From contig NZ_CP064908.1 of assembly GCF_015841355.1 (NCBI RefSeq), positions 496,001 to 560,000 of the forward strand: a stretch of 64,000 nucleotides of DNA, in the 5' to 3' direction. How positions within the stretch are numbered: position 1 is the stretch's first letter; each line of letters opens with the position of its first letter. Below the pieces are notes generated by a model. That model did not search any database and was not told the origin of the DNA. It saw only the letters and a list, made by a program, of their open reading frames with translations. The DNA comes from Synechococcus sp. CBW1107. GTDB taxonomy: Bacteria; Cyanobacteriota; Cyanobacteriia; PCC-6307; Cyanobiaceae. Position numbers and translations under genes: made by a program. Shown in pieces: positions 21,259 through 35,929 of this stretch.

Positions 21259-21507
21259 GTGACCCTCCTCGCTGAACTCCTGGTCGGGCAACCGGGGCAC
21301 TGTCTGATCGTGGCCCTGGTGCTGCTGGCGGGCTGGTCCCTGCTGTGGGCCTCCCTGGCCTGGGGGTTGTACGCCGCCTGGGAGGCGCTGGTGCAGCTGC
21401 GCACGCCGGAGGCCAACATCCGGGTGGATCTGCTGTTGATCTGGCCGTTGCTGGCCGCGCTGACGCTGGTCGGATTGATCAGCTGCACCATCGGGGCAAG
21501 ACGCTGA
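21259..21507 (+). CDS. Small two-helix membrane protein, unknown
   Basis: The protein has 82 residues with two long hydrophobic segments (about 14-40 and 57-78) separated by QLRTPEANIRVDL. A GTG start is used. It lies between the divergent PliI-like gene and a secreted-protein gene on the same strand. No family is recognised. The regular codon use and clear membrane topology make a real gene likely, but it is short. Confidence 0.5.
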   Translation: MTLLAELLVGQPGHCLIVALVLLAGWSLLWASLAWGLYAAWEALVQLRTPEANIRVDLLLIWPLLAALTLVGLISCTIGARR

Positions 21508-21597
21508 GCTGGGTGCCACTCGGCGTGGCCTGGTCCTGAAAGATGTGTTATGAATGCTCTCTGGATTGCCCAGCGAGGCGGTTCGATCCGACCTTCA

Positions 21598-22350
21598 ATG
21601 TCCACATCACCCATGGTTTGCAGCCTTCGTCACCACTCCGCAGCCCTTGGCGCGGGTCTTCTGCTGTCGGGCCTGTCCGCCCCCTTCGCGCCGGCAGCCA
21701 TGGCCGAAGTCCTGGTCCGGGCCCAGGGCCGTTGCAAACTGATGAGCGGTGGGTACGAAGCCTTCAACGGACACTGCCTCTTCAAGCACAAGAAGGCTGG
21801 AAGCGTCGATGCCTATGTCGTGAAGCTCGACGACGGCACGGAGTTCAGCTTCTCGGGCCCCAACGTGCAGGCGCTGAGTGTGCAGACCTACGACGGCATT
21901 CGCAGCGTCAGTCACAGCATCCAACCGGACCATGAGGTCTTCAGCTGGAATGACGGCGAACCCCGAAAGCTCTCCGTTCGGCTCGACCGCGTCGAGAACC
22001 CCGACGTCCGTTTCGAGGATTCCGCCCAGAAGGCTGATTCCAGCACGCTCCTGGGTGCCGCGGTGGGTGCTCTGATCGGCGGGCTGATCTCCGGTAAGCC
22101 CATCACCACGACCGAGCCAGCCCGGGAGGGCGCTCCGGTCTCCGATCTGCAATCCCTGGTGGGCGCCAAAGGGGGCCAGGCCGAAGGAACCCTGACGTCC
22201 AAGGGCTACACCTACCGCGGCGGCACCAAGCTGGCCGACAGTTCCTTCAGCTACTGGCAGCAGCCCAGCACAAAAAACTGCGTGGCGATTCGCACCACCA
22301 ACGGACGCTATCAGTCCATCACCTACACAACAAAGAGCGACTGCAACTGA
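21598..22350 (+). CDS. Exported protein, unknown function
   Basis: From the ATG of MSTSPMVC the protein has 250 residues; an ATG 48 bases upstream (21550) is an alternative. A signal peptide is visible (ALGAGLLLSGLSAPFAPAAMAE). The mature part begins VLVRAQGRCKLMSGGYEAFNGHCLFKH, shortened here to its key residues: Cys pair RCKLMSGGYEAFNGHC, then DDGTEFSFSG, a glycine-rich hydrophobic stretch GAAVGALIGGLISG (about residues 160-173) that resembles a glycine-zipper, and a C-terminal domain ending TTKSDCN. No family is recognised. A strong hairpin follows the gene. Confidence 0.65.
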   Translation: MSTSPMVCSLRHHSAALGAGLLLSGLSAPFAPAAMAEVLVRAQGRCKLMSGGYEAFNGHCLFKHKKAGSVDAYVVKLDDGTEFSFSGPNVQALSVQTYDGIRSVSHSIQPDHEVFSWNDGEPRKLSVRLDRVENPDVRFEDSAQKADSSTLLGAAVGALIGGLISGKPITTTEPAREGAPVSDLQSLVGAKGGQAEGTLTSKGYTYRGGTKLADSSFSYWQQPSTKNCVAIRTTNGRYQSITYTTKSDCN

Positions 22351-22379
22351 CCAGCGGCTGGATCAGCGGCTGAGATGTC

Positions 22380-22406
22380 CCCCCTGTGGCCCTAAGCCAC
22401 AGGGGG
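22380..22406. terminator. Strong hairpin between convergent genes
   Basis: CCCCCTGTGGC (22380-22390) and GCCACAGGGGG (22396-22406) form a perfect 11-bp stem with loop CCTAA. It sits between the exported-protein gene and the convergent GlsB/YeaQ-like gene, so a bidirectional terminator is likely, although neither side has a T-tract. Confidence 0.65.
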
Positions 22407-22856: not shown

Positions 22857-23873
22857 TCAAAATCCCTCCAGCACGATCTTGCCGTGCACCTCACCCGAAG
22901 CGATCCGGGCATGGGCCTGCTCGAGGTTCGCGGCATTGATCGGCCGGAGAATCCCGGTGACGGTGGTGCGCAGCCGGCCGGCATCGATCTCATCGGCCAC
23001 CTGATTGAGCAGGTGATGCTGTTCGATCATGTCTGGCGTCTGATGCAGCGCCCGGGCGAACATGTATTCCCAGTGCAGGCTGGCGGCCTTCGTTTTCATC
23101 TCGGCCATCGGCATCGGCTGATCTGTGGCCTCGATGCAGACGATGCCGCCCTGGGGACGGATCAGCTCCACGGCCTCAGGCCAGTGACCCATGTCGCTGA
23201 AGATGGCGATGTGATCCACAAAGCGAGGCCCGAGGGCACGCACCTGCTCCACCAACGGGCGGTGGTGATTGACCACATGCTGGGCACCGAGCTCCTGCAC
23301 CCAGGCGATCGAGCTGGCCCGGGAAGCCGTGGCGATCACCGTGAGCCCGGCGCGGCTGGCGAGCTGAATGGCGATCGAGCCGACACCGCCGGCGGCACCG
23401 ATCAGCAGGATCGTCTGACCCCTGGCGCTGCCATCACGGGGGATCCGCAGCCGGTGGAACAGGGATTCGAACGCGGTGATCGTGGTGAGCGGCAACGCCG
23501 CCGCTTCGGCGAAGGACAACGATCGAGGCTTGCGGCCCGCCAGTCGCTCATCCACCAGCTGGAACTCGGCATTGCTGCCAGGCCGTGTGATCTCCCCGGC
23601 GTAGAACACCGCATCCCCCACCCGGAACAGACTCACCTCGGCGCCCACCGCCCGCACCACCCCGCTGGCATCCCAGCCGAGCACCCGTGGGGCCGGTGAA
23701 TCGGCGCCGGTGGCGTCGCGGACCTTGAGGTCCACCGGATTCACGGCGACGGCGGCCACCGCCACCAGCAGATCGTGGCTGCTGGGAGTGGGTATGGGCA
23801 GTTCACGGTCCTGAAGGCGGCGCGGATCGGACTCGTGCAGGGAGGCGCCGACGGTGACAGCCTTCATGGACAT
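22857..23873 (-). CDS. Zinc-type alcohol dehydrogenase / quinone oxidoreductase family protein
   Basis: This 338-residue medium-chain dehydrogenase has an N-terminal GroES-like domain (VAVNPVDLKVRDATG, RVLGWDASGVVRAVG) and a Rossmann domain with LLIGAAGGVGSIAIQLA that binds NAD(P)H. The classical catalytic-zinc and structural-zinc cysteines are absent, as in quinone oxidoreductases. Reduction of a quinone or enone is inferred; the substrate is unknown. It lies at the edge between core and accessory DNA; the next upstream sequence is a gene remnant. Confidence 0.85.
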   Translation of the reverse strand: MSMKAVTVGASLHESDPRRLQDRELPIPTPSSHDLLVAVAAVAVNPVDLKVRDATGADSPAPRVLGWDASGVVRAVGAEVSLFRVGDAVFYAGEITRPGSNAEFQLVDERLAGRKPRSLSFAEAAALPLTTITAFESLFHRLRIPRDGSARGQTILLIGAAGGVGSIAIQLASRAGLTVIATASRASSIAWVQELGAQHVVNHHRPLVEQVRALGPRFVDHIAIFSDMGHWPEAVELIRPQGGIVCIEATDQPMPMAEMKTKAASLHWEYMFARALHQTPDMIEQHHLLNQVADEIDAGRLRTTVTGILRPINAANLEQAHARIASGEVHGKIVLEGF

Positions 23874-27029: not shown

Positions 27030-27733
27030 GAGGGCCCGATCGCGTGATGTGCGGTGGTGAGCAGCAACACAATGTTGAGCAGACCGAAGGTGCCAGCAGC
27101 AGCGTACCGAAATGATCAAAACCAGCCCGATTGACGTTCGGCACCCGACGATCCATGGGTCAGTAGCGCTCGGCAAGCACAACATTCACAATGCCCAGCG
27201 GCACATTGACCAGGAAAATGGTCCGCCAGCCGAGTCCGGCGATGAGCAGACCGCCGATCGAGGGACCAAGCGTGGTGCCGATCGCGGACATCGTTCCAAG
27301 CAACCCCATCGCGCTGCTGATCCTTGCTTTCGGCACCGTCTCACTGACGAGAGCAACGGTGAGAGCCATCATGATCGCGGCTCCGAGGCCCTGCAGGGCA
27401 CGGGCGGCAATCAGCACCCGAGCGTGGGCGCGAGGCCACACAGAAGCGACGCAATCGTGAACAGGCTGATTCCAGCCAGTAACAGTCGTCGACGTCCAAT
27501 GATGTCTCCGAGCAGTCCGACGCTGACGATCAGGGTGGTGATAGCGAGAAGATACGCCAGGACGATCCACTGGACGGACTGGAAAGAGGAGGAGAACGCC
27601 TGGGCCAGCGTCGGCCGGCCGGCATTGGCGATGCTCGTATCCAGCGAGGGCATAACATGGAGAGGGAGAGGCTGGCCGGCGCCCAGCGAACCGACGAAGT
27701 GCGTTCCGACGGTTCTGCAATGATTGGCTTCAA
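27030..27733 (-). pseudogene. Decayed MFS drug-efflux transporter (DHA2/EmrB type), N-terminal part
   Basis: Three minus-strand frames together spell an MFS N-terminal half. They give WAPASLSLSML (start ATG about 27733), then after a frameshift PSLDTSIANAGRPTLAQAF, VQWIVLAYLLAITTLI and GDIIGRRRLLLAGI up to GLAPTLG, then after a second shift near 27415 LIAARALQGLGAAIMMAL and GWRTIFLVNVPLGIVN. A stop follows ERY, yet homology-like sequence DRRVPNVNRAGFDHFGTLLLA continues behind it, and a shifted FGLLNIVLLLT comes after that. The motif GDIIGRRR is the MFS loop signature. About half the family length is missing. It is non-functional. Confidence 0.8.
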
Positions 27734-28573: not shown

Positions 28574-30118
28574 ATGAACAAACCGATCGTGGCGGCCAAC
28601 TCACCCATTGCCGTCGATCTGAAGAAGGGCAAAACCTACCTGTTCTGCACCTGTGGACGGTCGAAGGATCAACCGTTCTGCGACGGCTCCCACAAGGGCA
28701 GCGGGATGTCACCCCTGCCGTTCACGGCCGACGATGAGGGAGAAGCCTGGCTCTGCCGCTGCAAGCAGACGGCACAGGCACCCTATTGCGACGGCAGCCA
28801 TGCCCAGGTTTCCGATGATCAGGTGGGGCAAAGCTTGTCGCTGAAGAGTTCAGCCGAGCGGGACCGGATGCCTGAACCCCATCCCACCCGGGAGGAACCC
28901 ACGCTCAGCCTCATCCATGACCTTGCCGAGCATGGGCTCGAGCACGTGGGACCCCAGGGGCCGATCGCGGCAATGGGCGTTCCCCGCAGCGAGCTGCCCA
29001 ACTGGGATCACCTCCAGATCCTGGTGGCCCAGCTGGCCAGGCAGCCTCTGCAGGACGACGTGCCGGTCGCCACGGAGCTGGTGCTGGGTCCGCAGGCCGC
29101 CAAGCCCCTGCACCTGCGGATTCCGCTGTTCGTGTCCGACATGAGTTTCGGCGCCCTCTCCGAGGAGGCGAAGGTGTCCCTGGCGCGAGGAGCCGAACAG
29201 GCTGGAACCGGGATCTGTTCCGGGGAGGGGGGCATGCTTCCCGAGGAGAAGGCGGCCAGCAGCCGCTATCTCTATGAGCTGGCCCCGGGTCGATTCGGCT
29301 ACCGGGAGGAGTTGCTCACCCAGGTCCAGGCGTTCCACTTCAAGTGCGGACAGGCGGCGAAGACCGGAGCCGGAGGCCACCTGCCCGGCATCAAGACCAC
29401 CGCCCGCATCGCTGAGCTGCGTGGCGTCCCGGTGGGCGAGGCGGTGATCTCTCCGCCAGCGTTCACGGATCTGACGACGGTGGATGATTTTCGGCGTTTC
29501 GCCGACGGGGTGCGCGAGGTCAGCGGGGGAATTCCCGTGGGCTTCAAGATGAGTGCCCAGCACATCGAAGCCGATCTGGATTTCGCCCTTGATGCCGGGG
29601 CCGACTACATCATTCTCGATGGACGCGGCGGCGGCACGGGGGCGGCCCCCCTGCTGTTCCGTGATCACATCTCGGTACCGACGATCCCGGCCCTGGCTCG
29701 GGCACGCCGCCATCTGGATCGCCGTGGGGCCAGCGGCCGCGTGACCCTGATCATCACGGGCGGACTACGGACCCACGCGGACTTCATCAAGGCCATGGCC
29801 CTGGGTGCCGATGGGATCGCCCTGGCGAATGCCGCGATCCAGGCGATCGGCTGCGTCGGGGCCCGAATCTGCCACACAAACAACTGCCCGGCCGGCATCG
29901 CCACCCAGGATGAAACCCTGCGGCGGCGACTGAACATCGACCATGCCGCCGATCGTCTGGCCCGCTTTCTCGAGGCCAGCGTGCAGCTGATGCAGGTCAT
30001 GGCCCGGGCCTGCGGTCACGCGGATCTCCACAGCTTCCACAGAGACGATCTGACCAGCTGGCATCAGGACATGGCGACGCTGGCCGGCATCGCCTGGAGC
30101 GGGGCGGAAGGCCAGTGA
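28574..30118 (+). CDS. Double CDGSH iron-sulfur domain fused to a glutamate-synthase-type FMN domain
   Basis: The 514-residue protein begins with two CDGSH motifs: C25-x-C27 with C36DGSH40, and C61-x-C63 with C72DGSH76. Each can hold a [2Fe-2S] cluster by three Cys and one His. Residues about 110-500 match the FMN-binding synthase domain of GltB: SDMSFGALSEEAK, SGEGGM, KCGQAAKTGAGGHLPG, DGRGGGTGAAP and, near residue 435, CHTNNCPAGIATQ, whose cysteines fit the [3Fe-4S] site. The glutaminase domain of GltB is absent, so glutamate synthesis is unproven; it may be an FMN oxidoreductase fed by the CDGSH clusters. It stands alone between decayed genes. Confidence 0.85.
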   Translation: MNKPIVAANSPIAVDLKKGKTYLFCTCGRSKDQPFCDGSHKGSGMSPLPFTADDEGEAWLCRCKQTAQAPYCDGSHAQVSDDQVGQSLSLKSSAERDRMPEPHPTREEPTLSLIHDLAEHGLEHVGPQGPIAAMGVPRSELPNWDHLQILVAQLARQPLQDDVPVATELVLGPQAAKPLHLRIPLFVSDMSFGALSEEAKVSLARGAEQAGTGICSGEGGMLPEEKAASSRYLYELAPGRFGYREELLTQVQAFHFKCGQAAKTGAGGHLPGIKTTARIAELRGVPVGEAVISPPAFTDLTTVDDFRRFADGVREVSGGIPVGFKMSAQHIEADLDFALDAGADYIILDGRGGGTGAAPLLFRDHISVPTIPALARARRHLDRRGASGRVTLIITGGLRTHADFIKAMALGADGIALANAAIQAIGCVGARICHTNNCPAGIATQDETLRRRLNIDHAADRLARFLEASVQLMQVMARACGHADLHSFHRDDLTSWHQDMATLAGIAWSGAEGQ

Positions 30119-31371: not shown

Positions 31372-33090
31372 ATGCCCGCCCCTTTGTCGTTGCGGATCAA
31401 GGAGCGGTACATGGCCAAACGGGCCCAGGGCCTCAGCCAGCAGATCGCCGCTGATGGAGCCGGTATTTCGGTGCGTAGCGCCCAGCGCATCGATCGAGGA
31501 GACCATCAGCCCCAGAACCAGCCGCAGCGCGGGCGGAGTTGGCGCACCCGAGCTGATCCACTCGCCGCCGTATGGGAGAGCGTGTTGGTGCCGATGCTTG
31601 AGCAGGCGCCGCAGCTTGAACCTCAGACCCTGCTGCTCCATCTCGAGCAAAGCTTCCCTGGCCAGGAGTGGTATCGCCGCAAACGCACCCTGCAGCGGCG
31701 TGTTGAGCAGTGGCGGGCGCTGTACGGCCCGGCTCAGGAGGTGATGTTCCTGCAGGAGCACCGCGCCGGGGTGATGGGCATCTCCGATTTCACGTTGCTC
31801 AAGGGCGCACCCATCACCGTGGCTGGTGTGGTGCTTGAGCACCGGCTGTTCCACTTCCGTCTGCCGTTCTGTGGCTGGTGCCATGTGGAGGTGATCCACG
31901 GCGGTGAGAGCTTTGTCGCCCTGTCCGAGGCTCTGCAGAACGCCCTGGTCCTCTGCGGTGGCGTGCCGGCGGAACACCGCACCGACAGCCTCAGCGCCTG
32001 CTTTCGTAACCGCGACGGCAGCTACGCAGGCGACTACACCAGCCGCTACCGCGAGCTCTGCGCTCATCTCGGAGTGATCGCCACCCGCAACAACCGCGGC
32101 GTGGCCCATGAGAACGGCGCGATCGAGGGACCGCATCGGCATTGGAAGCATCGGCTGGAGCAGCAGCTGATTCAGCGCGGCAGCAGGGATTTCGAGACTG
32201 AGAGCGAGTACCGGCAGCTGGTGAGTCAGGTCACCACTACGTTCAACAGCCGTGCTGGCGTGCAGGGGAAGCTGGAGATCGAGCGGCTGCACCTGCAGCC
32301 GCTGCCGGTGCAGCGCTTTGCCGACTACGAGCCGCTGGTGGTGCGGGTGCGGAGCACCAGCACGATTGAGGTGCGCTCGGTCACCTACAGCGTTCCCTCA
32401 CGGCTGATCGGCCATCAGCTGACGGTGCACCTGCACCATGACCGGCTGGATCTGTTCCTGCGCAGCCAGTTCGTTGAAACTCTGCCGCGGTTACATCGGC
32501 GAGCGGGAGAGAGCGGTCCACTGCGACGTATCGATTTCCGCCACGTGATCGAGAGCCTCCGGCGCAAGCCGCGGGCGCTGCTGCGGGCCCAGCTGCAGGC
32601 CGACATCCTTCCGGGCCCGAGGTGGCATCGGCTCTGGCGGCAGCTGCTGGCGGCCCTGCCGCCGGATGAGGCCGCCAAGGTCATGGTCGATGCCCTCCAT
32701 GTCGCCGCCAAACAGGACGACCTCGCCGGGGTGGAGCGCTACCTGCGGCGTCAGCTGCGCAGCGGCGAGGTGAGCCTCACCGCTCTGCGCGATCACTACG
32801 GCCTGCGGCCCCCGAGGGGCCTGGCGGCCCTTCCCCAACTCGACATCCCCGAACACCAACTGAGCAGCTATGACGAACTCCTGGGTGGAGCCCCCGAGCA
32901 GGCCAGCACTGGAGAGTGCCCTGCCCTCACTCCTGAAACAGTTGAAATTGGCCCAGTTCCGCAGCCAGTGGCAGGCGGCCGAACAGCAGGCCATAGCCGA
33001 TGGCTGGAGCCCGGCCAGCTACCTCTATGTGCTGGCCGAGCAGGAACACCAGCAGCGCCACCAGGCACGGCTGCGGCGGCTGTTGCATGA
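31372..33090 (+). CDS. istA: IS21-family transposase IstA (element 1)
   Basis: The DDE transposase has an N-terminal helix-turn-helix-like region (LSQQIAADGAGISVRSAQR) and an RNase H-like core. Candidate catalytic residues are Asp in MGISDFTLL, Asp in EHRTDSLSA and Glu in AHENGAIEG. It works with the IstB ATPase to insert the element. The frame remains open 221 bases into istB, giving 572 residues; conserved sequence ends near SSYDELL, where other IstA proteins stop, so the last about 70 residues are probably a read-through tail. The start could be GTG/ATG at 31372 or nearby. Confidence 0.85.
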   Translation: MPAPLSLRIKERYMAKRAQGLSQQIAADGAGISVRSAQRIDRGDHQPQNQPQRGRSWRTRADPLAAVWESVLVPMLEQAPQLEPQTLLLHLEQSFPGQEWYRRKRTLQRRVEQWRALYGPAQEVMFLQEHRAGVMGISDFTLLKGAPITVAGVVLEHRLFHFRLPFCGWCHVEVIHGGESFVALSEALQNALVLCGGVPAEHRTDSLSACFRNRDGSYAGDYTSRYRELCAHLGVIATRNNRGVAHENGAIEGPHRHWKHRLEQQLIQRGSRDFETESEYRQLVSQVTTTFNSRAGVQGKLEIERLHLQPLPVQRFADYEPLVVRVRSTSTIEVRSVTYSVPSRLIGHQLTVHLHHDRLDLFLRSQFVETLPRLHRRAGESGPLRRIDFRHVIESLRRKPRALLRAQLQADILPGPRWHRLWRQLLAALPPDEAAKVMVDALHVAAKQDDLAGVERYLRRQLRSGEVSLTALRDHYGLRPPRGLAALPQLDIPEHQLSSYDELLGGAPEQASTGECPALTPETVEIGPVPQPVAGGRTAGHSRWLEPGQLPLCAGRAGTPAAPPGTAAAAVA

Positions 33091-33652
33091 GGCCCAGCTG
33101 CCCTGGCCCAAAACCCTGGCCGACTACGACTGGAGCGCCATCCCCGATCTGGACCATCACCAGATTGAGCAGCTCGCCCACGACACCAGCTGGCTGGACC
33201 GCGCCGAGAACCTGCTGCTGTTCGGCCCCAGCGGGGTGGGCAAAACCCACCTGGCCTCAGGGATCTGTCGCAGCCTGATCGCCCTGGACCGCTCGGCGCG
33301 CTTCTTCTCGGGCACCACGCTGGTGCAGCACCTGCAGCAGGCCAAGGCCGACTACGCGCTGGCCAAGGCGCTCACCAAGCTCGATCGCTACGCCCTGCTG
33401 GTGATCGACGACATCGGCTACGTCCGTAAGGACGAGGCCGAGACCTCAGTGCTGTTTGAGCTGGTGATGCACCGCTACGAGCGCAGATCGCTGCTGGTGA
33501 CCAGCAACCAGCCGTTCAGCGAGTGGGAGAACGTGTTCTCCACCAGCGCCATGACCGTGGCGGCGGTGGACCGGCTGGTGGACCACAGCACCATCGTTCA
33601 AATCAGTGGTGAGAGCTACCGCCGCAAGCGGGCCCGCCGTTCTGCGTCCTGA
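32870..33652 (+). CDS. istB: IS21-family helper ATPase IstB (element 1)
   Basis: IstB is an AAA+ ATPase that assists IstA target capture. The 260-residue protein has the N-terminal helical domain, Walker A FGPSGVGKTH, Walker B LLVIDDIGYV and the sensor segment LVTSNQPFSEW. It ends SYRRKRAR as usual for IstB. It begins inside the istA frame. The length is normal, so the element may still be active unless its left end is defective. Confidence 0.9.
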   Translation: MTNSWVEPPSRPALESALPSLLKQLKLAQFRSQWQAAEQQAIADGWSPASYLYVLAEQEHQQRHQARLRRLLHEAQLPWPKTLADYDWSAIPDLDHHQIEQLAHDTSWLDRAENLLLFGPSGVGKTHLASGICRSLIALDRSARFFSGTTLVQHLQQAKADYALAKALTKLDRYALLVIDDIGYVRKDEAETSVLFELVMHRYERRSLLVTSNQPFSEWENVFSTSAMTVAAVDRLVDHSTIVQISGESYRRKRARRSAS

Positions 33653-34236: not shown

Positions 34237-35929
34237 GTATCCGTTCAGGGGGCGTGACAGCTCGCGGCGAACATCGGCCCTGCTGAACCCTTGACGACAG
34301 CTTGATTTCCGGTTGCATCTCAGGTAGAGACCCGCCTATGATGACCGCACATCCGGCTGGAATTCCAGAAGCCGACTGGCTGGAAACTCCCGCCAGCGTC
34401 AGAGCGCTGATCAACGCCCAGCAGCAGGAGATCGAGCTGTTGCGCGGCCAACTCACCTCCTTGGCCACCGAGTTGGCAAACCTGCGTGAGCGGATCGGAC
34501 GCAGCTCTCGCAACTCATCCAAACCTCCCTCCAGTGATGGTCTGGGTTTTAAGCCGCCAGAACGGCGCAAGGGCAGTGGCCGCAAGCGGGGCGGCCAGCA
34601 GGGCCATCCCGGATCCGGACCAGAGCTGCTGTCGATCGAGCGGGTGGATCAGGTGGTGGATCACCACCCTGATGCCTGCCGCCGCTGTGGCACCTTGCTC
34701 CAGGGAGAGGATCTCGATCCCCTGCGCCATCAGGTGATCGAGATCCCGCCGATTACCCCGCTGGTGATCGAGCACCGGCTGCATCGCCTGGTCTGCCCCT
34801 GCTGTTCCACCAGCACCTGCGCCTCGTTGCCGGCGGATGTGGAGGCCAGTCACTACGGCCCAAGGCTCAGTGCACTGGTGGGCCTGCTGGGCAGTGCCTT
34901 TCCGTTGAGTTTCAGCAAGACCCAGGCCCTGCTCCAGCAGCTGGTAGGAGTGGAGATGAGCCGCGGCGCGATTGGACGGGTCCGCCAGCGCTTGAGTGCA
35001 GCACTGGAGCAGCCCATGCAGGAGGCCCTTGCTTTTGCCCGCGTGCAGCCGGTGGCCTACGTAGATGAAACTGGCGCCCCCACCGGCAATGCCGACGGCA
35101 ACAATCCCACTGGAAAGCGGGGCTGGCAGTGGGTCATGGTCACCGCCGTGGTGACGGTATTTGTGCAAGGGCTGAGTCGATCGACGACCGCTGCCATCGA
35201 GCTGCTGGGGAACGCCTTTGGCGGGATTGTGGTGAGCGATCGCTTCTCGGCCTACAACCACCTGCCCACCAAGCAGCGCCAGCTGTGCTGGGCGCACCTG
35301 ATCCGCGACCTGACGGCCATCGCCGAACGCCCGGGCGCCAGCGCTGAATTCGGAGCCCAGCTGCTGGGCCTGCAGCAGCAGCTGTTTGGCCACTGGCACC
35401 GCTACAAGGAGGGAAAGATTGACTGGCCCGCCTTGCAGCAAAGCTGCCGGCCGATCCGCCAGACCTTTGAGACCACGCTGCAGCGGGTAGTAGAGCTCGG
35501 CTACCAGCGCGGCGAGCGAACGCCTTGGGCCAGCACAGTGCGCACGTGCCAGCAGCTCCAGAAGGTGACAGGTGGGTTGTGGACCTTCCTGGAGAACGAG
35601 GGAATAGAGCCCACCAACAACGCCGCAGAACGTGCCCTGCGCCAATCGGTGATTCAGCGCAAGATCAGTCAAGGAGTCCAATCCCGCCAAGGTGCGATCT
35701 GCCGGAGCCGCCTGCTCACGGTCACCACTACCCTCAGGCAACAGGGGCGGGATGTCTGGGAGTTCCTGGAGCAGGCCTGGATCGCCCATCACCGCGATGG
35801 GGTGATGCCGTCACTGCTGAGCGATCCCTGAAGGCAGAAGAAAGGACAAGGAAGAGTCTCTGATCGCTCAGCGGTGAGCGATCAGGCTTGCATTCGTGCG
35901 GTGGGGCGTCCCGACCCCTGAACGCATAC
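34237..35929 (+). mobile_element. IS66-family insertion sequence, single-gene (ISBst12-like) type
   Basis: The element is 1693 bp. Imperfect terminal inverted repeats match: left GTATCCGTTCAGGGGGCGTG, right (reversed) GTATGCGTTCAGGGGTCGGG. It is flanked by perfect 8-bp direct repeats, CAAAAAGC. It carries only the transposase, without tnpA/tnpB accessory genes, as in the ISBst12 subgroup. Removing it and one repeat joins GGSFL to FLPIDLGDEA with no frame change, proving insertion into an SDR gene. Boundaries are exact to about one base. Confidence 0.93.
34338..35831 (+). CDS. IS66-family transposase
   Basis: The protein has 497 residues from the ATG at 34338. An N-terminal leucine-zipper region (QQQEIELLRGQLTSL) is followed by the IS66 linker RNSSKPPSSDG and KRGGQQGHPG, a zinc-finger-like pair CRRCGTLL and CPCCST, and a DDE core: Asp in AYVDETGA, Asp in VVSDRFSAYN and Glu in NNAAERALR. 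The frame is intact and full length, so the element may be active. A longer start just upstream (34302) would lie in the terminal region. Confidence 0.93.
   Translation: MMTAHPAGIPEADWLETPASVRALINAQQQEIELLRGQLTSLATELANLRERIGRSSRNSSKPPSSDGLGFKPPERRKGSGRKRGGQQGHPGSGPELLSIERVDQVVDHHPDACRRCGTLLQGEDLDPLRHQVIEIPPITPLVIEHRLHRLVCPCCSTSTCASLPADVEASHYGPRLSALVGLLGSAFPLSFSKTQALLQQLVGVEMSRGAIGRVRQRLSAALEQPMQEALAFARVQPVAYVDETGAPTGNADGNNPTGKRGWQWVMVTAVVTVFVQGLSRSTTAAIELLGNAFGGIVVSDRFSAYNHLPTKQRQLCWAHLIRDLTAIAERPGASAEFGAQLLGLQQQLFGHWHRYKEGKIDWPALQQSCRPIRQTFETTLQRVVELGYQRGERTPWASTVRTCQQLQKVTGGLWTFLENEGIEPTNNAAERALRQSVIQRKISQGVQSRQGAICRSRLLTVTTTLRQQGRDVWEFLEQAWIAHHRDGVMPSLLSDP

Follow-up and report, generated by a model that had tools for sequence, protein, structure and literature searches.

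In the 64,000-nucleotide stretch of Synechococcus sp. CBW1107 analysed here (the window; NZ_CP064908.1, positions 496,001 to 560,000), one gene joins a tandem CDGSH module to the flavin mononucleotide (FMN) domain of glutamate synthase (GOGAT), a plan published as the type 5 CISD. The new element is comparative evidence on that plan, from module exchange and gene neighbours. On the homologous flavin domain of relatives, the N-terminal module is a tandem CDGSH, a Rieske domain (of two kinds) or a rubredoxin, which suggests that the CDGSH unit is an exchangeable electron outlet and not a regulator. The module is most likely an electron-transfer domain that carries electrons from FMN to a stress-linked acceptor; the substrate of the enzyme and the direction of flow are both inferred.

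Exchange of the N-terminal module

Rieske-bearing relatives occur in a cyanobacterium (L015/L235), in haloarchaea (L115, L116) and in a gammaproteobacterial sample (L218–L228), and the second kind of Rieske domain in L229–L231. Rubredoxin-bearing relatives (L118, L270, L272–L281) have the domain doubled in some cases. Module type was read from sequence motifs at most loci and from Pfam for representative proteins; the rubredoxin match of L118 is below threshold in Pfam (23.0 vs 26.5), and the open reading frame (ORF) of L223 begins within its Rieske domain. Since 78 loci come from the best 80 of 578 relatives, all of them CDGSH forms, the module counts are not frequencies.

In a quick tree of the flavin domain, one group of 55 rows (Shimodaira–Hasegawa-like approximate likelihood ratio test, SH-aLRT, 100) comprises 34 CDGSH rows, 20 Rieske rows that sit within them, and L117. 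The second Rieske group and the rubredoxin rows fall outside it; row L273, labelled "none" in the tree, carries rubredoxin and is the same gene as L287. Constraining the rubredoxin rows to a single clade improved on the score of the unconstrained tree (approximately unbiased test, p-AU 0.77). Two architectures depart from the common plan: a protein of Halomonas ventosae (L041, 7932–9869) has four CDGSH motifs, that is, two tandem modules, and L117 (4932–7073), on a Pseudoalteromonas plasmid, has a C-terminal FGE-sulfatase domain and no N-terminal module.

Neighbour genes and module type

Gene neighbours were compared within 6 kb at 154 distinct loci (119 CDGSH, 21 Rieske, 3 second Rieske, 10 rubredoxin and 1 module-less), on stretches longer than 5 kb and after removal of copies with an identical 200-aa core. 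Neighbour families were identified with BLAST, using proteins of these loci as seeds, genes were called by simple ORF choice, and counts and p values are uncorrected for kinship. Rubrerythrin was found at 7 of the 10 rubredoxin loci vs 1 of the 144 others (Fisher p 2.7e-9); L279, a rubredoxin form beside a rubrerythrin-like ORF, was left out of the counts because its contig is short.

A thiamine pyrophosphate (TPP) enzyme resembling PoxB lies near 8 of the 21 Rieske forms vs 1 of the 119 CDGSH forms (p 5.6e-7). In L226 its best solved match is the PoxB-type pyruvate dehydrogenase (cytochrome) (PDB 3eya, E 2.7e-62), from which the TPP neighbours differ by an N-terminal module that is Rieske, CDGSH plus Rieske, or rubredoxin. 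The Rieske N-terminus is present in all seven TPP neighbours of Rieske loci where it is visible (L116 is cut), and the TPP enzymes of two Rieske-form genomes (G497, G1004) likewise bear it. At L051 a CDGSH-form flavin enzyme is accompanied by a TPP enzyme that combines two CDGSH motifs with a Rieske domain, and at L287 both enzymes have rubredoxin; the CDGSH–CDGSH and rubredoxin–rubredoxin matches thus amount to one locus each. At E 1e-100 the TPP enzyme was matched in 10 of 61 chosen genomes, namely 9 of 23 with Rieske forms (partial in G747), and 1 of 11 with rubredoxin forms; the 27 genomes with CDGSH forms, among them that of the window, gave no match at this threshold. It is possible, though doubtful, that the two unrelated enzymes, GltS-type flavin and PoxB-like TPP, have one-electron outlets of matching type that are swapped together (Rieske with Rieske, CDGSH with CDGSH, rubredoxin with rubredoxin) and would feed electrons from amino or 2-oxo acids into a private pool for quinone and peroxide defence.

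The module could alternatively sense redox state or oxidants, with the CDGSH clusters gating the FMN enzyme and lying off the electron path. Cycling of the mitoNEET cluster is halted by nitric oxide binding (PMC9490426), and stress-type neighbours do occur at some loci. We consider such gating improbable: in relatives the place of the CDGSH module is taken by Rieske and rubredoxin domains, and the rubrerythrin beside rubredoxin forms suggests electron delivery. CDGSH, Rieske and rubredoxin modules are all one-electron carriers, and for this reason electron transfer is preferred. Of the two roles offered by the original prediction, an electron path between CDGSH and FMN or redox gating, the second is thus the less favoured.

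Domains and conserved residues of the window protein

The window protein was predicted to carry two complete CDGSH motifs before a GltB-like domain that keeps FMN residues and [3Fe-4S] cysteines and lacks the glutaminase, and Pfam and alignment agree (Table 1). The zf-CDGSH family scores 67.5 bits (cut-off 29.5) over two stretches and Glu_synthase (PF01645) 301.7 bits (cut-off 20.4) over residues 174–481; the glutaminase and GXGXG domains have no Pfam match, and Glu_syn_central stays below its cut-off (13.7 vs 22.8 bits). Both ligand sets are complete (C25, C27, C36, H40 and C61, C63, C72, H76), with 20 residues between H40 and C61. Two sets of exactly C-x-C-x8-C-x3-H recur in 133 of 136 distinct CDGSH-type proteins (loci L033–L304); the exceptions are L041 with four sets, and L042 and L210 with one (the L210 ORF is shortened). 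Q33 and K64, which mark CISD types 5 and 6 (PMC3174974), are both present in the window protein.

Table 1. Features of the CDGSH–flavin gene, in window coordinates
Feature	Position	Strand	Evidence
Whole gene, tandem CDGSH plus glutamate-synthase-type FMN domain (type 5 CISD), 514 aa	28574..30118	+	ORF, Pfam, purifying selection
Tandem CDGSH module, residues 1–77	28574..28804	+	Pfam zf-CDGSH, two stretches; PDB 3tbn match over residues 3–77, E 2.6e-23; Gln33/Lys64 rule (PMC3174974)
Variable linker, about residues 78–104	28805..28885	+	Linker length varies between relatives; predicted local distance difference test (pLDDT) low at 92–96
GltS synthase-type FMN barrel domain, residues 105–507	28886..30094	+	PF01645; VIA-align Z 38.0 to 1ea0 and 36.7 to 1ofe over 106–507
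E218, K257, Q260, K263, R283, pocket positions common to GOGAT	29225..29422	+	Alignment with 1ea0/2vdc; conservation in 78 rows
[3Fe-4S]-type motif C-x5-C-x4-C (C427, C433, C438)	29852..29887	+	Aligned to 1ea0/2vdc chain positions 1102, 1108, 1113; 78/78 rows identical

The C-terminal part aligns to A. brasilense GltS chain positions 853–1128. The three cysteines of the C-x5-C-x4-C motif and Q260, K263 and R283 are invariant in all 78 aligned rows, two GOGATs included; E218 differs in 5 rows, all of them module-less, and K257 in 7 rows that lack a module as well as in the MgsC-like one. The FMN and pocket residues are thus kept, so the objection that lost FMN contacts would raise to enzymatic activity does not apply. 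We take the five pocket positions to correspond to E903, K966, Q969, K972 and R992 of ferredoxin GOGAT, with roles towards 2-oxoglutarate or FMN, and the cysteines (GltS 1102, 1108, 1113) to be [3Fe-4S] ligands; ferredoxin GOGAT E975 and Q978 are presumably A266 and H269 here.

The AlphaFold model has a mean pLDDT of 84.6, and its residues 100–503 were used for fold comparison. The best matches are glutamate synthases (Z 34.1–38.0, about residues 106–507), with FMN hydroxyacid oxidases behind (Z ~26). The protein is therefore like the GOGAT synthase domain (1ea0, 1ofe) in fold (Z 36.7–38.0), in its cysteine motif and in its pocket residues, and differs from GOGAT in having no glutaminase or GXGXG domain, a central domain below cut-off and a fused CDGSH module. 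Comparison with five cyanobacterial copies gave dN/dS of about 0.16–0.25 (ratios from computed dN and dS), which indicates purifying selection. Domain scores, conservation and dN/dS together rule out a chance or mis-called ORF.

The same domain also occurs in L238 and L239, which we take to be MgsBC-like proteins, and the flavin domain might accordingly make or oxidise an N-alkyl glutamate, like N-methylglutamate synthase. We judge this very improbable: the single MgsC-like row in the tree (L238) stands among module-less rows on a very long branch (2.29), and none of the 16 window ORFs scanned was recognisably of methylamine type.

Direction of electron flow

We propose, tentatively and at somewhat less than an even chance, a modular flavin dehydrogenase. 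Its GltS-type domain, with a GOGAT-like pocket, would oxidise a glutamate-like or related amino or 2-oxo acid at FMN; electrons would then pass to the domain's own [3Fe-4S] cluster, as the conserved cysteines suggest, and on to the fused tandem CDGSH [2Fe-2S] module. The module would hand them singly to an acceptor outside the protein, which to judge from the neighbours may be a quinone or similar electrophile for the CDGSH forms and rubrerythrin for the rubredoxin forms. Retention of the pocket residues makes a glutamate-like substrate probable.

Both rubredoxin and Rieske domains carry electrons at intermediate potential. The mitoNEET cluster, at about -30 mV, passes electrons of FMNH2 on to either ubiquinone or O2 (PMC9490426); in GltS the FMN lies at about -240 mV and the [3Fe-4S] cluster at about -280 mV (PMC8097209). 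Since mitoNEET at -30 mV stands against GltS FMN at -240 mV, and several of the neighbouring genes seem to encode consumers of electrons, the flow probably runs from FMN to CDGSH. The predicted path survives, with Rieske and rubredoxin occupying the same place, and its direction from CDGSH to FMN is probably reversed. MitoNEET and other CISDs share the 3Cys-1His [2Fe-2S] motif with the window protein, but mitoNEET has no flavin domain on its chain, whereas here the flavin donor would be covalent.

Flow in the opposite sense would make the protein an ammonia-dependent glutamate synthase, in which a donor reduces CDGSH, CDGSH reduces FMN, and FMN reduces the 2-iminoglutarate that free ammonia forms with 2-oxoglutarate. 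Its pocket residues common to GOGAT and its nearest fold, GltS, including the 2-oxoglutarate complexes 1ofe and 1ofd, are consistent with this, as are the gltB and gltD near one fusion (see below). We nevertheless judge it unlikely: the host genome already encodes a GOGAT-type protein of full length (open frame of 1557 aa), Pfam found no glutaminase domain, a NEET cluster at -30 mV seems a poor donor to FMN at -240 mV, and the swapped modules are CDGSH, Rieske and rubredoxin, not low-potential ferredoxins.

Stress-linked neighbours of some CDGSH forms

Across the 154 loci, the neighbours include pirin (16), glutathione S-transferases (GST) resembling glutathionyl-hydroquinone reductases (13), cytochrome b561 (8), YceI (7) and old yellow enzyme (OYE; 5). 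At least one of pirin, GST, YceI and OYE is present at 21 of the 119 CDGSH loci and at one Rieske locus, and 12 of the 154 loci have at least two from the set made up of these four and cytochrome b561. Pirin occurs at 43 places in 30 of these genomes (~96 Mb), so that at most 0.83 would be expected over the 154 loci vs the 16 observed. We assign the GST to the hydroquinone reductase group by resemblance; Pfam reports GST domains only. LysR genes stand near many of the pirin-, GST-, YceI- or OYE-type loci, and these LysR and pirin-type neighbours resemble the YhaJ (LysR) regulon of E. coli, in which YhaJ controls the pirin-like yhaK and yqjF, the latter responding to hydroquinone and catechol (PMC5031710). 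A single operon common to all copies is ruled out, as neighbours vary and most CDGSH copies lack the tested genes.

These neighbours would also suit electron input for detoxification, with the module passing electrons to FMN and FMN reducing a quinone, nitroaromatic or other electrophile in the manner of OYE. Genes for OYE, FMN reductase, the hydroquinone-reductase-like GST and pirin adjoin the fusion in some loci. The pocket residues, however, are of the amino/2-oxo acid enzyme type, and no reductase for the module was found beside the window gene among 16 ORFs, making this route quite unlikely.

Three further associations were observed. A DUF5996 gene adjoins Rieske forms in four loci (L220, L222, L228, L234); a second two-CDGSH protein adjoins the fusion at L086 (9651–10283, with a Fer4_19 domain in Pfam as well) and L208 (3759–4394); and a peptide methionine sulfoxide reductase lies beside or ahead of two Rieske forms, confirmed by Pfam in L291 and recognised by eye in L289.

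Several points weigh against the modular dehydrogenase with an exchangeable outlet. The potentials compared were taken from mitoNEET and A. brasilense GltS, not from the window protein, and kinship, as said, is left uncorrected in the neighbour statistics. The flavin-domain tree came with long-branch warnings; since a single all-CDGSH clade was not rejected (p-AU 0.18) and a single all-Rieske clade not firmly so (p-AU 0.051), the number of module exchanges is uncertain. At L112 the modules do not match, a CDGSH flavin enzyme standing 6.6 kb from a TPP enzyme with a Rieske domain only. No pirin, GST, YceI or OYE occurs within 6 kb at 98 of the 119 CDGSH loci, and the pirin excess is weak in an even gammaproteobacterial sample (2/50, P 0.03; GST 5/50). 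The four genes are also missing among the 16 ORFs scanned around the window copy and at six other cyanobacterial CDGSH loci; with none of the tested neighbours beside it, the function of the window copy rests on homology. Finally, a gltB-like ORF lies near the fusion in a verrucomicrobial metagenome-assembled genome (L053, 10620–16711), along with a 493-aa ORF that we take to be gltD, and another gltB-like ORF near the fusion gene of L293, which favours glutamate synthesis in those hosts.

The window locus

The absence of an adjacent reductase had been predicted, and none was found among the 16 ORFs scanned around the gene. The nearest dehydrogenase-like ORF belongs to the zinc-type alcohol dehydrogenase family (22857–23873, 4.7 kb upstream), and a cupin gene also lies upstream. 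Just upstream is a fragment of a major facilitator superfamily transporter (27160–27723, minus strand; the match spans part of the Pfam model), and shortly downstream are transposase genes of the IS21 type (Mu-type transposase C domain, IstB; 31372–33652) and of IS66 (34302–35831). Pirin has one weak match in the window genome, distant from the fusion gene. In a close relative (G002) the fusion gene follows sequence that matches window 21267–22391, so about 6 kb differ between the two. That genome has two copies (G002:C28 and G002:C31), with 92% and 72% identity to the window protein.

Distribution and published accounts

The type 5 CISD was defined in 2011, with examples in 32 bacterial species, as a tandem CDGSH domain joined to the FMN domain of glutamate synthase (PLoS One, PMC3174974), and the window copy differs in nothing from that plan: the two motifs about 20 residues apart, the Glu_synthase domain and Gln33/Lys64 are all there. 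A further trait of the type is a monomeric pseudo-dyad fold that binds a pair of [2Fe-2S] clusters; for the window copy the match to 3tbn is one of sequence, the fold comparison having covered residues 100–503. In cyanobacteria, CDGSH proteins that include Glu_synthase and FMN_dh domains have been reported to cluster with proteobacterial counterparts, and horizontal transfer has been suggested for them (Sci Rep 2018, PMC5859297). The fusion was thus widespread and already classified, and its supposed novelty does not hold; a proven function, on the other hand, was not found, our search of open-licence papers, as available in excerpt, yielding no experimentally tested function for a type 5 CISD. 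Searches of the same literature for Rieske or rubredoxin fusions of this flavin domain, or for a module-bearing TPP neighbour, returned no paper, most hits being judged from listings. In their available parts, the 2011 account gives no function, module exchange or gene neighbours, and the 2018 account no mechanism and no Rieske or rubredoxin counterparts.

In the host's family, 13 of 91 sampled genomes have the CDGSH form, the window genome counted. Two of these 13 have irregular copies, one with an in-frame TGA (L006, G089) and one in pieces only (L016, G031), and some hosts may be able to do without the gene. Among the matches listed for 58 other genomes of the host's class there is no CDGSH form and one Rieske form (G095). 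Elsewhere, 51 of 369 genomes of a Marinobacter's class match at E <=1e-150, with CDGSH and Rieske forms pooled, and 60 of 150 genomes of a Vibrio's family match at 1e-60, the central genome being included in both.

Implications for NEET proteins

The field has not settled which electron partners CDGSH (NEET) proteins use physiologically. With a flavin donor covalently attached to the NEET module, donor, direction and acceptor become measurable in one protein. The exchange of CDGSH, Rieske and rubredoxin modules and the matching modules of the TPP enzyme favour a role as electron outlet and open that role to experiment. If the two enzymes do share a matched outlet, the NEET domains of type 5 CISDs would be electron outlets of a flavin enzyme.
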